Made by a program: the position numbers and the translations under genes | From: a virus | Virus record (IMG/VR): IMGVR_UViG_3300042879_003295 | Coordinates: 1 to 57,950 of that record | Reading direction: 5' to 3' (one strand) | DNA length: 57,950 nt | Shown here: piece after piece, positions 4,498 through 10,214 of the stretch | Numbering within the stretch: position 1 is the stretch's first letter | Layout: each line of letters opens with the position of its first letter | The notes under the pieces: generated by a model | The model's database searches: none | Told to the model about the DNA's origin: nothing | The model's input: the letters and a program-made list of their open reading frames with translations, nothing else

Positions 4498-5846
4498 TTC
4501 TTATTATTAGCTCCGTATCTACCAAAAGTATCTCTAATAAGTTTCATCGATGTATAAGATGATTCAGAGTCAAAGTGATGGCATAGTTCCTTAATCATAT
4601 ATAGACCGCTTTGCTCCTGATCATACTCTTCCTTATCTCCCGATGAAATTTTAGGGAAATGACAATTAATAATGTCTCCAGCCGAAAGATTTGTGTTTAG
4701 AGGGATGAGCATATCAACTGCCTGTGTAAACAAGACATTATATCTCATCAAAGATTGTGATTGATATTTAAAAGGATCTGCATTTTCATCAGTCGAAACA
4801 TCTTTCTCCATTGTACCAATGTCAAGGCATTGTGTAATAATTCTAGTTGGAGTGTCTCCTAAACTCTTTCCATCAGAACCAGATAACTTAGGAAGTTTAA
4901 GTTTATCTCCCAGATTTTTTGCCTTGCCTACATAATCTTCGAGTTTAAAGATACCTTTTTGAGGATCTGTAAACTCAAACGTAAGTGGGTTATAAAACAT
5001 ACGATAACTTGAGTATGTTCCTAATCTTAATTTCTCGATTAGATTTTGATTTTTATCAGTAGTAAAATCTAAAATATTAAAATCACTGTTTTCCTGTTTA
5101 CCTTCAGTATCATAAGTTTCTTGGGCACCTGATAGTGTATAAGTTGCTTTTGATTCTTGTCCCATTAAACCATCAATAGATCTAAACTGAAATCCATCTT
5201 TGGTTTGATAAAAAACAAATCCTGCTGTTCCATCACCAGATGTATCACCAGGAACTGCTTTTGCTGATAACCAAGTGCAAACAGTGAATGGCTTTCTCAG
5301 ATTACCAATAAATCCATATTTGTTTTGAGTCTTATCCAATTTTCCTATTTTTTTAGTCCTTAGGACATTTTCTAGAATACTTCTAATAGAAGCATCAATT
5401 GTCGAACTAGTTGGATATTTTTTTGTAACTCTTACTGTTTCGTTTGTGATCGCTTCTCTTGATGTTAAATTTAGTAAGAATGATTCTGATTGTGGATTAG
5501 ATATAACTTCAGTAATACTCGAAACGTAAAAATAATCATCCACCTTAGAAAAATCTAGTGGTTTATTCTTATCAGAATTAGCGGCAACTTTTATTGATAC
5601 TCTTTCTCCACCTCTTAAAGGTAGACCATTGTAGATAGATTGTCTAGCGCCATCTGGAGTTCCTTCTTTATCTGGCGCCTGAATACTGTTGCCATCGTTT
5701 ACAACTCTAATTTTTGCAGTAATCGTTGGTGAAAAAATGTCTTCATAATAATCAAACGCAATGATACCACCTTTGATATCAACGATTCTTTTTTGATCGT
5801 TTGATTCTATGAAAGCTTTTTCATATGTAGATTTTTTTGTTGACAT
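4494..5846 (-). CDS. 27: gp27-like baseplate hub protein (450 aa)
   Basis: Lies between the gp5-like and the cell-wall hydrolase genes with four- and one-base overlaps, which is the T4 hub order. The N-terminus (residues 5-60, AFIESNDQKRIVDIKGGIIA then FDYYEDIFSPTITAKIRV) reads like the first beta barrel of gp27/gpD-type hub proteins. The size is somewhat larger than T4 gp27 (391 aa). Residues 375-435 contain a likely second barrel (LIPLNTNLSAGDIINCHFP, YMIKELCHHFD). The name is inferred from gene order and fold-like pattern. Confidence 0.6.
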   Translation of the reverse strand: MSTKKSTYEKAFIESNDQKRIVDIKGGIIAFDYYEDIFSPTITAKIRVVNDGNSIQAPDKEGTPDGARQSIYNGLPLRGGERVSIKVAANSDKNKPLDFSKVDDYFYVSSITEVISNPQSESFLLNLTSREAITNETVRVTKKYPTSSTIDASIRSILENVLRTKKIGKLDKTQNKYGFIGNLRKPFTVCTWLSAKAVPGDTSGDGTAGFVFYQTKDGFQFRSIDGLMGQESKATYTLSGAQETYDTEGKQENSDFNILDFTTDKNQNLIEKLRLGTYSSYRMFYNPLTFEFTDPQKGIFKLEDYVGKAKNLGDKLKLPKLSGSDGKSLGDTPTRIITQCLDIGTMEKDVSTDENADPFKYQSQSLMRYNVLFTQAVDMLIPLNTNLSAGDIINCHFPKISSGDKEEYDQEQSGLYMIKELCHHFDSESSYTSMKLIRDTFGRYGANNKK

Positions 5847-7702
5847 CAGAGATATGAGAGTTCTACTAAAAGTCTATTTTTTATAAAGGTATTTAACAGT
5901 TCTGATTGACCTTTTGCAGATCCTGAAGAAATCGCAGATACTCCTGCTGAACCACCACCTCCACCATAACCTGGTGGAACTGCCGCACCAGATGCTGGAA
6001 ATTCTGCAAAAACAACTTCACCTTCTCTTGATGGAGTAATTGATCCAGAAACATTTTGTTGTTGCATAGCAGTAAACTGTCCTGGTGCAACTCCTGCTGC
6101 TCTTTGTGCATCTGGTAAAAACTTTTTATAGTTGCCATCAGTAAAACCAGACCAAGCAGTTATTCCTTGACTTTCATAAATCATCTTCGCTGCTTTTGCA
6201 TTTAATAAAGGATCATATAATTGCTGTGGGGAGGTTATTCCAATCTTTCTCAAATTAGCAGCGTGAACTGGCCAACGAATCTGCCAGAGACCATACACTT
6301 CAGTATCAGATCTCATAGATGTGGATTTTCCACGAGATTCTTGCATAGCAACTGCACCCATAAGAACATCCAAAGGACCACTATATCCTGCAACATTAAC
6401 TTGTTTAGTCATACCAACTTGTTTTGCAAGCGAAACTAATTGTGCAGTTGATAATGTTCCTCCAGAAGGTGCTGGTTGACCCATCAAAGTTTGTTGTGGA
6501 GTTGGATTTGCAATTGTTGCTGGTTGTGATGTTTGAGTAACTTTAACATTTCCACCACCTCTAACATAATTGTCAATTTGTGATGCAGGATTAACTTTAC
6601 CAGTAATAGTTCCATTCCAACCACTCCCCAACTCAAAGTGTAAGTGAGGTCCAGTTGAGACTCCAGTACTCCCAACCTTACCAATTACAGTTGCTGCGCC
6701 AGACTCATTTTTAATTCTTGTCCCTTCACTAACATTAATTTGACTCAAATGACCATATAAACTATAAGTTCCATCATCGTGTTTAATAACAACATATTTT
6801 CCCCAACCACTTCTTCCTAGATCTCTAGTTTCAACAACTGTTCCAGGTTTAATAACAGATATGGGAGTTCCTGCTTGCCAAGGTCCACCAGAAATATCAA
6901 CACCACCATGATTAGTAGAAGCGCCAGCAGTTGGTCTTGTTCTAGGACCATAACCAGAATATATGTAAGGAGAAGCTTTTGCTCCACCAGTCGCAGCCAT
7001 AGATGGTCCCATATACGATGGGGGAAGCGATGCACCACTTTGTTCTTGTGGTGTTGGTTCTGTTGTTTCTTGAGGAGTTACATCTTCAAGTTTTAAATCA
7101 TCAAAAAGACCAAATCCTTTCTCAAATTCTGCAGACATCAAACCAAATTGTTTTTCGAGTTCATTCATTCCTTTCTGAACTTCTCCTGGAAGCGCAGCAA
7201 AATTAAAATCTGCAATTTGCATCGAAACGTTTTTTATTGTATCTCCAAAAGATACAACTGCTCGATAAGCTGCTCCTACAAAATTACTCAAAGAAGTCCA
7301 CAAAGATTCCATTCTCGCATAAAATGTTTGTCCCCACTTTATCCAAGTTGGTAGATTGGATAAAATCCATCCAATTGCCAAGCTACTAATAAAATCCATG
7401 ATTCTTCCTAAGAATCCCTTTCCAGGAGCACTTAATCTAACTCTTGCTGCTCCAGGTCTTCTTATTGTGAGTCTTGCTGCTTCAAATGCCTCTTTTTGCT
7501 CCTTTCTGTTTAGAGCCTCTATTTTTCTAGTATTGACTAACTGCCTGTTTCTAAAAATTTCTGATCTAATTTTAGTACGACGCTCAAAAACTTTATTAAT
7601 TTTACTAAAAGATTTCTTTGTGGCAAAAATACTAGATTTAATTGCCGATGTTTGTTGTAGTAAATCTTCCGTTGATTTTGTGAATCCTGATACAATTGCC
7701 AT
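5846..7702 (-). CDS. baseplate hub protein with M23 peptidase and lysozyme-like domains (618 aa)
   Basis: Order: basic N-terminal helix (1-90), hydrophobic segment about 97-118 (GFLGRIMDFISSLAIGWILS), a long linker, then an M23 zinc peptidase at about 245-360 with NHGGVDIS (zinc His and Asp), YGHLS and GPHLHFELG. A transglycosylase/lysozyme-like region follows at about 420-530, with AVAMQESRGKS (possible catalytic Glu), YGLWQIRWPVH and NAKAAKMIYES. The C-terminus is Gly-rich. Together these could cut peptide and glycan bonds when the tail crosses the host wall. It sits in the hub operon between gp27-like and a 538-residue structural gene. Confidence 0.8.
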   Translation of the reverse strand: MAIVSGFTKSTEDLLQQTSAIKSSIFATKKSFSKINKVFERRTKIRSEIFRNRQLVNTRKIEALNRKEQKEAFEAARLTIRRPGAARVRLSAPGKGFLGRIMDFISSLAIGWILSNLPTWIKWGQTFYARMESLWTSLSNFVGAAYRAVVSFGDTIKNVSMQIADFNFAALPGEVQKGMNELEKQFGLMSAEFEKGFGLFDDLKLEDVTPQETTEPTPQEQSGASLPPSYMGPSMAATGGAKASPYIYSGYGPRTRPTAGASTNHGGVDISGGPWQAGTPISVIKPGTVVETRDLGRSGWGKYVVIKHDDGTYSLYGHLSQINVSEGTRIKNESGAATVIGKVGSTGVSTGPHLHFELGSGWNGTITGKVNPASQIDNYVRGGGNVKVTQTSQPATIANPTPQQTLMGQPAPSGGTLSTAQLVSLAKQVGMTKQVNVAGYSGPLDVLMGAVAMQESRGKSTSMRSDTEVYGLWQIRWPVHAANLRKIGITSPQQLYDPLLNAKAAKMIYESQGITAWSGFTDGNYKKFLPDAQRAAGVAPGQFTAMQQQNVSGSITPSREGEVVFAEFPASGAAVPPGYGGGGGSAGVSAISSGSAKGQSELLNTFIKNRLLVELSYL

Positions 7703-7703
7703 A

Positions 7704-9320
7704 TTATGTTACCACATTATAGTTAAATTGTGAATATAAAGCATAAAAATTATCAGGATTAGATGATCTAATCTTAGGAACATTTGTACTTGCTCCAGCA
7801 CCTCCCGATGGTCTTGCCATTGGTGGTGGAGATGGAACTGTTGCAACCACAGTTGTTGGTGGTTTTGATTCTGGTCCTAAACTTCCTGCTTTCACATCTG
7901 CTGGTTGAGTAGGAGCAGGTTTAACATCTGCTGGAGTTGCAGTAGATGCTGTTTGAGCAGGAACTTCTCCTGTTGGTTTTGTTCCTTGCATTCCTGCTGT
8001 TGGTGCAGGAGAACCCAATGAAAGAGACCTGGAATCAGGAGTCATTGGGGTTTGTGGAGTTACTGTGAGAGTTTGTGTAGTCTGAGAAGTTCCCTCCATT
8101 CCAGGAGGAACTGCTGCGCCAGAAGGAGGAAGTTTTATTTCTTGTGTTGGTTCTGTACTAGCCTCTGCTCCTTTCTGTCCTTTATCGTCTTTCTTTTCTC
8201 CCATCAAAGGAGTTTGTGGTTGAGCAGCAGGTTGTGTTTCTGCTGGTGAAGTTCCTGGTTGTTGCTTTGCTTTTTTTGCTTCTTCTAATTCTTTCTTTTT
8301 CTTATCAGTAAGATTGCCACCAAATGCTTCTAGAACTTCATCAATAGTAAAAATTGTACCAGCAGCTGCTCGAAGACCTTTAAATATTACTCCTTTACCA
8401 GGAATAATAGACATAGCAGCTAAGGCAGCATCAATATTTTCACCATTTAAGAAGTTCATTCCAGCACTTAATCCAGTGATTGTTTTACCAATCAAACTCA
8501 TAACGCCAAATTTACCACCTGGACCAGCAGGAGTTGGTGGAGTGCGACCTGGCGCACCTGGACTACCTGGAACGGTAGGACGAGTTCCTCTTACATTACT
8601 CCATCCATTTTTTATTGCATTAATTAATGCTTGGAATGGTTTAATGAATAATCCACTAACAACAAATCCACCAACTCTTGATGCTAGATTAATAATTAAA
8701 CCAACTACTTTACCAATACCTATTTTAATTATGGAAAGAACTCCATTACCAGCAACTAAAAATGCAAAAGTTCTGAGAATATCAAATCCAATTTGCTTGA
8801 GAGCCTCAACATCCTTATTAGCTACTGCATCAACTAATTTAACAAGTTGCTGAAGACCCCATCCCGTTAATAATATTGTTATAGCTCTTCCAACGTTGGC
8901 AAAAGTGTTATTAACTTTATTCGATATTGCTTGTACAGGAGCAGATAAAGCAGCTTGTATTTTATTCTCTAGTCTTTGCTCTCCCTCAGAACGTACCGCT
9001 CTTTCTGCTAGACGCTTTTGATATTCTGTATCAGCTCTTGCTGCCGCTTCTTCTAATTTACTTTCTTGAGAAATTTTTAAAGCAATCGAATCTATTCCAT
9101 TTCTTAAAACTCCAATTTCTTGCGAAATTGTACTTAAACTAGAAGAAATAGATGTAAGAGTGGATTGATTATTTTCTAAAAGTTCTTGACTTCTATCACT
9201 ACCAACATTACTTGATCCTATCGGACCAATTCCTCTACCTCCACCAAAAGCTGATCCAGAAACACGCTGGATTAGTCCACCCTGAAGTGAGTTAGCTAGA
9301 GGCGAGGAAATAACTGCCAT
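7704..9320 (-). CDS. hub-associated virion structural protein (538 aa)
   Basis: Residues 40-130 are coiled-coil-like (repeated Ser/Leu/Ile heptads, then a Glu/Ala/Arg helix). Residues 130-240 contain several hydrophobic stretches (AITILLTGWGLQQLVKLV, FAFLVAGNGVLSIIKIGIG, VVGLIINLASRVGGFVVSG) that may be membrane-active. The last 200 residues are Pro/Thr/Ala-rich and low complexity. The architecture suggests a tail-tube-lumen or membrane-interacting protein ejected before the DNA. I cannot match it to a specific T4 gene. It lies in the baseplate operon just after the gp26/55-codon pair. Confidence 0.65.
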   Translation of the reverse strand: MAVISSPLANSLQGGLIQRVSGSAFGGGRGIGPIGSSNVGSDRSQELLENNQSTLTSISSSLSTISQEIGVLRNGIDSIALKISQESKLEEAAARADTEYQKRLAERAVRSEGEQRLENKIQAALSAPVQAISNKVNNTFANVGRAITILLTGWGLQQLVKLVDAVANKDVEALKQIGFDILRTFAFLVAGNGVLSIIKIGIGKVVGLIINLASRVGGFVVSGLFIKPFQALINAIKNGWSNVRGTRPTVPGSPGAPGRTPPTPAGPGGKFGVMSLIGKTITGLSAGMNFLNGENIDAALAAMSIIPGKGVIFKGLRAAAGTIFTIDEVLEAFGGNLTDKKKKELEEAKKAKQQPGTSPAETQPAAQPQTPLMGEKKDDKGQKGAEASTEPTQEIKLPPSGAAVPPGMEGTSQTTQTLTVTPQTPMTPDSRSLSLGSPAPTAGMQGTKPTGEVPAQTASTATPADVKPAPTQPADVKAGSLGPESKPPTTVVATVPSPPPMARPSGGAGASTNVPKIRSSNPDNFYALYSQFNYNVVT

Positions 9321-9324
9321 TTAA

Positions 9325-9492
9325 TTACTTTTTATTTTTTAAATTTTCTTCCTCAATATATTGTTGGAGAAGAGTTACATATATTTCTCTTTCCCAAGGA
9401 ATCATATTTTCAAGCTCTGTCAAACTATATTTATGATGCTGCATCAGGGCAAAATTAGTTTTATAGTATGACTCAAGATTTTCATGAGCCAT
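9325..9492 (-). CDS. 51: small gp51-like frame downstream of gp26; likely -1 frameshift partner (55 aa)
   Basis: ATG (9492-9490) begins two bases after the gp26 stop and runs 55 codons to TAA (9327-9325): MAHENLESYYKTNFALMQHH, then LTELENMIPWEREIYV and an acidic-lysine tail. T4 needs small gp51 together with gp26 in hub assembly; the position and the MIPWEREIYV motif fit such a chaperone. The frame is open upstream through the slippery site at 9507-9501, so it can also be made as a C-terminal extension of gp26 by -1 frameshifting. The independent ATG has no strong ribosome site. Confidence 0.7.
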   Translation of the reverse strand: MAHENLESYYKTNFALMQHHKYSLTELENMIPWEREIYVTLLQQYIEEENLKNKK

Positions 9493-9507
9493 ACTCACGC
9501 GAAAAAA
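9468..9507 (-). promoter_or_regulatory. candidate -1 programmed ribosomal frameshift signal
   Basis: In the gp26 frame the codons are GCT TTT TTC GCG TGA. T-TTT-TTC (9507-9501) is a classic X-XXY-YYZ heptamer. Eight bases later (spacer 9500-9493) a hairpin begins: ATGGCTCA (9492-9485) pairs with TGAGTCAT (9475-9468), eight pairs including one G-T, around a nine-base loop. Slipping back one base reads CGC GTG AGT ATG and enters the 55-codon frame. All three textbook parts are present at usual distances. Confidence 0.7.
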
Positions 9508-10214
9508 GCCGATAGTCCCTCCAGAAGAACTTCACTCTCAACTTTAGTATTTGGATTTTTAATCTTAATGGTATGGGACAACTTAGGCATTGTGTCAAAG
9601 AACTTTTCAACGTCTTTAAATTGACTTGATGTTAGAGATTCTACAAATTCTTGCAATTCTTTTTTAGTGCAATCACTTGCCGCCCAAGATTCATCTTCAC
9701 TATAAACTTGCTCAATACAACTACAAATTAGATCGAAAGTATCATCTACAGTAATTGCAGTCTCTGATCCAAAGTTAGCTTTAATGAATTCATTTAACGA
9801 TGGATATCTCATACGAAGAGATAGATTATCATCCAACTTAATGTCTCTAGAATGATCATCAGTTACTTGTACTTTGATTTCATCAAGACTGATACTCTTA
9901 GGAACTTGAGTTGTTCCATCATCAGGGCATGTAATCAAAACATCTACAGATTCACCTACGGACTTACCTCTAATATTTAAAAAGAGATACTCAATATCAA
10001 ACGTTGCTAATTCCTCAACCTTTACACCTTTAGTTTTAATACAATTCGAGATAACCTCTTTAACCGAATTTGCTATCTGCTTTGTATCTTCAGATTCCAT
10101 TGCAAGAATCAGAATCTTTTCTTCTTTAACTAAAAATGGTCTATATTTAATTTTTTGTTTCGTAGATGGAATTTCCAACTCATATGTTGGTGTAGTAATT
10201 GTTGGTAAAGGCAT
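9495..10214 (-). CDS. 26: baseplate hub subunit gp26 (239 aa)
   Basis: The N-terminus (YELEIPSTKQKIKYRPFLVK, then EEKILILAMES at about residues 33-43) is the recognisable start of T4-type gp26 hub/assembly proteins. The remainder is acidic with many short beta segments and ends EGLSAFFA before TGA. A late box CTAAATA (10248-10242) lies 27 bp before the ATG. The last codons include a slippery heptamer, so a longer gp26 with 57-58 extra residues may be made. Gp26 acts in baseplate hub assembly; in this group it resembles tail-assembly chaperones in arrangement. Confidence 0.8.
   Translation of the reverse strand: MPLPTITTPTYELEIPSTKQKIKYRPFLVKEEKILILAMESEDTKQIANSVKEVISNCIKTKGVKVEELATFDIEYLFLNIRGKSVGESVDVLITCPDDGTTQVPKSISLDEIKVQVTDDHSRDIKLDDNLSLRMRYPSLNEFIKANFGSETAITVDDTFDLICSCIEQVYSEDESWAASDCTKKELQEFVESLTSSQFKDVEKFFDTMPKLSHTIKIKNPNTKVESEVLLEGLSAFFA

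Follow-up and report, generated by a model that had tools for sequence, protein, structure and literature searches.

A conserved three-part signal at the end of gene 26 that very probably directs −1 frameshifting into gp51 in T4-like phages

The locus considered here is the 3′ end of gene 26, together with the reading frame known as gp51 that follows it, in a 57,950-base virus fragment from a T4-like cyanophage (IMG/VR record IMGVR_UViG_3300042879_003295, positions 1 to 57,950; hereafter the window). The window contains a single match to gp26 and a single match to gp51, with no second copy of either in its 57,950 bases. Gene 26 closes with the minus-strand codons CTG GAG GGA CTA TCG GCT TTT TTC GCG TGA, and the gp51 frame, which ends at 9325, lies at −1 relative to it. 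An earlier note on this DNA had placed a slippery heptamer, T_TTT_TTC, in the correct phase within the last gp26 codons, and had described the −1 frame as open upstream of the slip site and running into a frame of 55 codons; both observations hold, with 8 open codons of the −1 frame ahead of the slip. A shift on the heptamer is predicted to give a gp26-gp51 fusion of 296 amino acids (long form, 'TAC-NC') with the joint Phe-Phe-Arg-Val-Ser. Also present are an ATG at 9492, only 2 nucleotides (nt) past the gp26 stop, and a GTG at 9498. The features are collected in Table 1, and all the evidence that follows is drawn from sequence comparison and models.

Table 1. Features at the gene 26/gp51 junction of the window (SD, Shine-Dalgarno; ORF, open reading frame)
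Feature	Position	Strand	Basis
gp26, zero-frame product, 239 amino acids, short form 'TAC-N'	9495..10214	minus	ORF; Pfam T4_baseplate 1.7e-73; phrog_150 3.3e-79
Slippery heptamer T_TTT_TTC	9501..9507	minus	Phase, conservation, codon choice
gp26 stop TGA, one codon past heptamer	9495..9497	minus	Same spacing in 80/80 gp51-side loci
Internal SD-like GGAGG, 10 nt 5′ of slip site	9518..9522	minus	Conservation at 10 nt, Glu codon choice
Downstream hairpin, 5′ arm, 11 nt	9485..9495	minus	Folding, covariation
Downstream hairpin, 3′ arm, 11 nt	9465..9475	minus	Folding, covariation
−1 frame extension: R-V-S + 55 gp51 codons + stop	9325..9501	minus	phrog_634 4.5e-28; phrog_150 positions 238-278
gp51 as commonly annotated in relatives (ATG start), probably no separate gene	9325..9492	minus	Relatives' annotations; start absent in 74/164 representatives

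Conservation of the heptamer was followed in 342 sequences, comprising IMG/VR loci picked by gp26, reference phages and the window, of which 337 include the gp26 stop; clustering at 90% gp26 identity gave 164 representatives. An in-phase (X_XXY_YYZ) T_TTT_TT[C/T/G] lies near the end of gp26 in 335 of the 337 loci, the last base being C in 266, T in 64 and G in 5; only T6 and Vibrio phage D533 lack it. Loss of the heptamer from close relatives, which had been put forward as evidence that would count against frameshifting, is therefore not what is seen. Its carriers span the Kyanoviridae, Pootjesviridae, Otagovirus, Menderavirus and Straboviridae (e.g. Aeh1, 65, PX29, S13 and VH7D). When loci are sampled from the gp51 side, TTTTTTC is found at the same distance in 80/80, each of them preceded by an ORF in the gp26 frame that is 200 codons long or longer. 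It is by virtue of this conservation, and not of its frequency in the window, that the heptamer stands above chance, since TTTTTTC is not enriched there (27 copies against 36 expected); judged on the window sequence alone, the heptamer was not significant and that line was dropped.

The conservation of a C-terminal Phe-Phe at the protein level, along with the lack of enrichment just described, could be taken to mean that the heptamer is an accident of two phenylalanine codons in AT-rich DNA. The choice of codons at the slip site leaves this explanation with a close to negligible probability. In the representatives, the slip Phe-Phe is written TTT TTC or TTT TTT with a preceding T in 161/161, even though the residues that come before it (such as Asp, Asn, Ala and Ser) have codons with other endings. 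A control Phe-Phe elsewhere in gp26, by contrast, is TTC TTT in 88/135, with a mixed preceding base, and the second slip Phe is TTC in 84% of cases as against 31% in the gene body. In other words, as far as codon usage can tell, the conservation of the heptamer is in excess of protein constraint. Nor would an accident account for the long, homologous −1 frame that stays open in every representative where this can be tested: the −1 extension is open for 58-70 codons in each of the 159 that can be followed to a stop, and the +1 frame for a median of 8.

The start codons at the junction bear on whether gp51 can be made in any other way. An ATG lies within 8 codons after the slip in 84/164 representatives and a GTG or TTG in 6 more; in the remaining 74/164 there is no ATG, GTG or TTG within that distance, and the next start is often within the conserved core. 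Since these 74 lack a start codon, gp51 could hardly be produced in them except as part of a fusion. On these grounds gp51 as an independent gene was rejected, and the stretch annotated as gp51 probably does not constitute a gene of its own. The annotations are uneven in this regard: gp51 is wholly unannotated in the records of S-CAM4, S13, Aeh1 and DSL-LC03, and those of S-CAM22, ACG-2014a, phage 65 and Astolliot list only a shortened piece with a start further downstream. In Aeh1 (L342, NC_005260.1), the −1 frame after gp26 encodes the unannotated gp51 at 1465-1644. Three loci, L018, L030 and L031, have the heptamer and no gp51 start at the junction, and in L018 the window-type stem described below is also broken.

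The alternative that gp26 and gp51 are separate proteins, with gp51 translated by termination-reinitiation at TGA-gt-ATG or at the overlapping GTG without any frameshift, draws on the closeness of the window ATG to the gp26 stop, on the starts present in the representatives that have them, and on the separate listing of gp51 in the records. We consider it improbable. It does not accommodate the representatives without a start; there is no SD sequence at start-codon distance, the end of GGAGG and the ATG being ~25 nt apart; it leaves unexplained the heptamer with its codon bias as well as the covarying hairpins; and the gp51 of T4-type phages holds a gp26 part in the same chain.

Two further elements flank the heptamer. 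Upstream is an SD-like GGAGG, an element overlooked by the earlier note; its distance to the heptamer is exactly 10 nt in the window, as it is in 46/164 representatives. The shorter GAGG occurs in the same stretch in 87/164, where 5.4 would be expected, and mean predicted pairing with the 16S rRNA tail reaches its minimum at −15. Here too the codon choice departs from that of the gene body, the Glu codon at the element being GAG in 77% of cases as against 28%.

Downstream is a hairpin. The 8 pairs and 8-base spacer previously reported are correct in so far as a hairpin is there and those 8 pairs alone are counted; the full stem has 11 pairs, one of them G-U, and begins 5 nt after the heptamer. 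Its folding energy is −15.7 kcal/mol (z −4.1), and 0/200 shuffles are as stable. Across the loci, the mean folding energy right after the heptamer is −10.4 kcal/mol, compared with −6.5 ± 0.7 upstream in the gene body, and the mean folding z for positions +11 to +61 is −1.96, compared with −0.16 at random control positions. In close relatives the window-type stem covaries, with U-A replaced by G-C in 16/50 and C-G by U-A in 2. In a clade at ~60-69% gp26 identity it is mostly lost, and a different hairpin of 5 pairs is found instead, with two-sided changes at 5/5 pairs. A single universal hairpin was rejected, given the separate one in the sister clade and the few loci in which the window stem is broken.

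Both flanking elements are of significance for the possibility that the fusion arises from an mRNA altered by transcriptional slippage at the T6-T7 run, rather than from slipping ribosomes. A poly-T run is indeed present in all loci but two, and is a T7 in 64/337. However, a run of only 6 is short if a polymerase is to slip efficiently, and an SD-like element at 10 nt together with a hairpin are stimulators of the ribosome, for which a polymerase would have no need. We therefore regard transcriptional slippage as very unlikely.

The conservation of the heptamer, the internal codon control, the loss of start codons and the covariation of the hairpins together support the frameshift reading and, with it, the earlier proposal that gp26 and a gp26-gp51 fusion are made in the manner of G and G-T. 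With high confidence, a −1 frameshift signal made up of three parts is present in the gene 26 mRNA and would yield gp26 and the fusion as short and long tail chaperones. In the proposed mechanism the ribosome would meet GGAGG within the coding sequence, T_TTT_TTC 10 nt on and the hairpin 5 nt beyond. The majority of ribosomes would continue to the TGA and release gp26, and a minority would slip one base back, with tRNA-Phe in both sites, to give the fusion. The two proteins would then act as short and long tail assembly chaperones of the G and G-T type, keeping hold of the tape measure and hub proteins during tail assembly. Slipping itself, its rate, its stimulation by the SD-like element and the hairpin, and a chaperone role in the window phage are what we infer from these features.

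Several observations weigh against this reading. The SD-like element is not universal, as the count for GAGG makes plain, and a few loci have the window stem disrupted (4/11 pairs in L018, 5/11 in L229). In Vibrio phage D533 (L086, 2060-2330) a gp51-like −1 frame adjoins gp26 through a TAATG overlap without the heptamer, such that reinitiation may take the place of frameshifting there, and some free gp51 could likewise come from reinitiation at the window ATG. The structural comparisons given next are also not strong: for the chaperone fold the Foldseek E-values are weak (1.2-2.4), and Z falls just short of 8.

The predicted structure of gp26 (AlphaFold, predicted local distance difference test score 88) suggests, with moderate confidence, that its N-domain has the fold of known tail assembly chaperones. 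Residues 1-86 of the model align with the HK97 tail assembly chaperone 2ob9 at Z 7.8 (root-mean-square deviation 4.0, 84 aligned of 107), and the N-domain matches YqbN 3klu at Z 7.2, the first clearly unrelated row being at Z 2.9. A sequence search of solved structures with gp26 returned chance matches only, and an NCBIfam search nothing relevant.

For comparison with T4-type proteins, T6 was used in place of T4. Pfam T4_baseplate matches both T6 gp26 (2.9e-63) and T6 gp51 (3.1e-55), phrog_150 spans nearly all of T6 gp51, and the alignment of T6 gp51 (249 amino acids) with the gp26-gp51 fusion profile runs straight across the junction, with both halves included. By Pfam, PHROGs and profile alignment alike, the window proteins are homologous to T4-type gp26 and gp51. 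As T6 gp51 is homologous to the whole fusion, T4-type genes 26 and 51 have the look of a short and a long form that arose by duplication, and in T4, on this homology, gene duplication seems to have taken the place of the frameshift. The counterpart pair in T4 would then be two paralogues, gene 26 (short) and gene 51 (long). The earlier statement that T4 uses separate gp26 and gp51 is accordingly true of the genes, but the two arrangements are not simply different, with T6 gp26 corresponding to gp26 and T6 gp51 to the fusion: the long form in T4-type phages is a separate duplicated gene, whereas the window phage would use one gene and a frameshift.

Devices of this kind are known elsewhere. P2 E/E+E′ is one near system, not known to belong to the T4_baseplate family. 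In the Escherichia coli dnaX signal an SD-like sequence lies 10 nt upstream of the heptamer A_AAA_AAG, with a hairpin downstream, and a shortened protein results. The window signal has the same anatomy (an SD-like sequence ~10 nt 5′, a heptamer, and a hairpin 5-9 nt 3′), a likeness of anatomy only, as its heptamer is T_TTT_TTC and its product an extension. Lambda G/G-T slips on a heptamer other than T_TTT_TTC. As in the case proposed here, it comprises a short protein and a low-level −1 extension from the 3′ end of the same gene, both chaperones of the tape measure (PMC5009743); unlike it, gp26 has 239 amino acids, of which only the N-domain resembles the HK97 chaperone.

The chaperones of the Vandenendeviridae and Andersonviridae are likewise not known to be members of the T4_baseplate family. 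There too a downstream frame was misannotated as a separate hypothetical gene, but the motif is GTTTTT rather than TTTTTTC, and the relevant passages mention neither an SD-like element nor a hairpin (PMC12846349). Chaperone genes of T4-like phages have already been named by Vladimirov, Gautam and Davidson (2022, Virology 566:9-15), whom a later paper credits with a polyT signal and who are cited for T4-like phages in which a short chaperone gene is accompanied by a longer fusion gene (PMC10885494). From its title, the papers that cite it and the homology found here, that study appears to concern genes 26 and 51. The device is thus of a known kind; what the present analysis adds is the anatomy of the signal, its near-universality in the sample, the loss of start codons and the replacement of hairpins.

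Chaperone genes of the G/G-T type stand directly ahead of the gene for the tape measure. Beyond gp51, the next ORF (7704-9320, minus strand, 538 amino acids) has no PHROG match, and its position suggests a tape-measure-like role. It is followed at 5846-7702 (minus strand) by an ORF of 618 amino acids with a peptidase domain, which matches endolysin, peptidase and tape-measure families.

T4 gp51 is described as needed for assembly, absent from the particle and, in 2010, of unknown function (PMC3004832). Cyanophage gp51 has been noted as only ~20% of the length of T4 gp51, and gp51 listed as missing in Aeh1, with no frameshift explanation for either in the pertinent passages of that account (PMC3037559). 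Both oddities are accounted for if the absent part is gp26 itself. It is likely, in our view, that among T4-like phages belonging to neither the T4- nor the RB49-type group, most never have gp51 as a free protein but make it as an extension of gp26, by way of a conserved signal of SD element, heptamer and hairpin in which the hairpin can be exchanged, and that the essential gp51 of T4 is a duplicated, frameshift-free descendant of the long form. This would give T4 gp51 a testable role, and the gp51 'gene' of many cyanophage and T4-like records needs to be annotated anew. The same reading would also mean that one lineage retains the recoding device where another seems to have swapped it for gene duplication.
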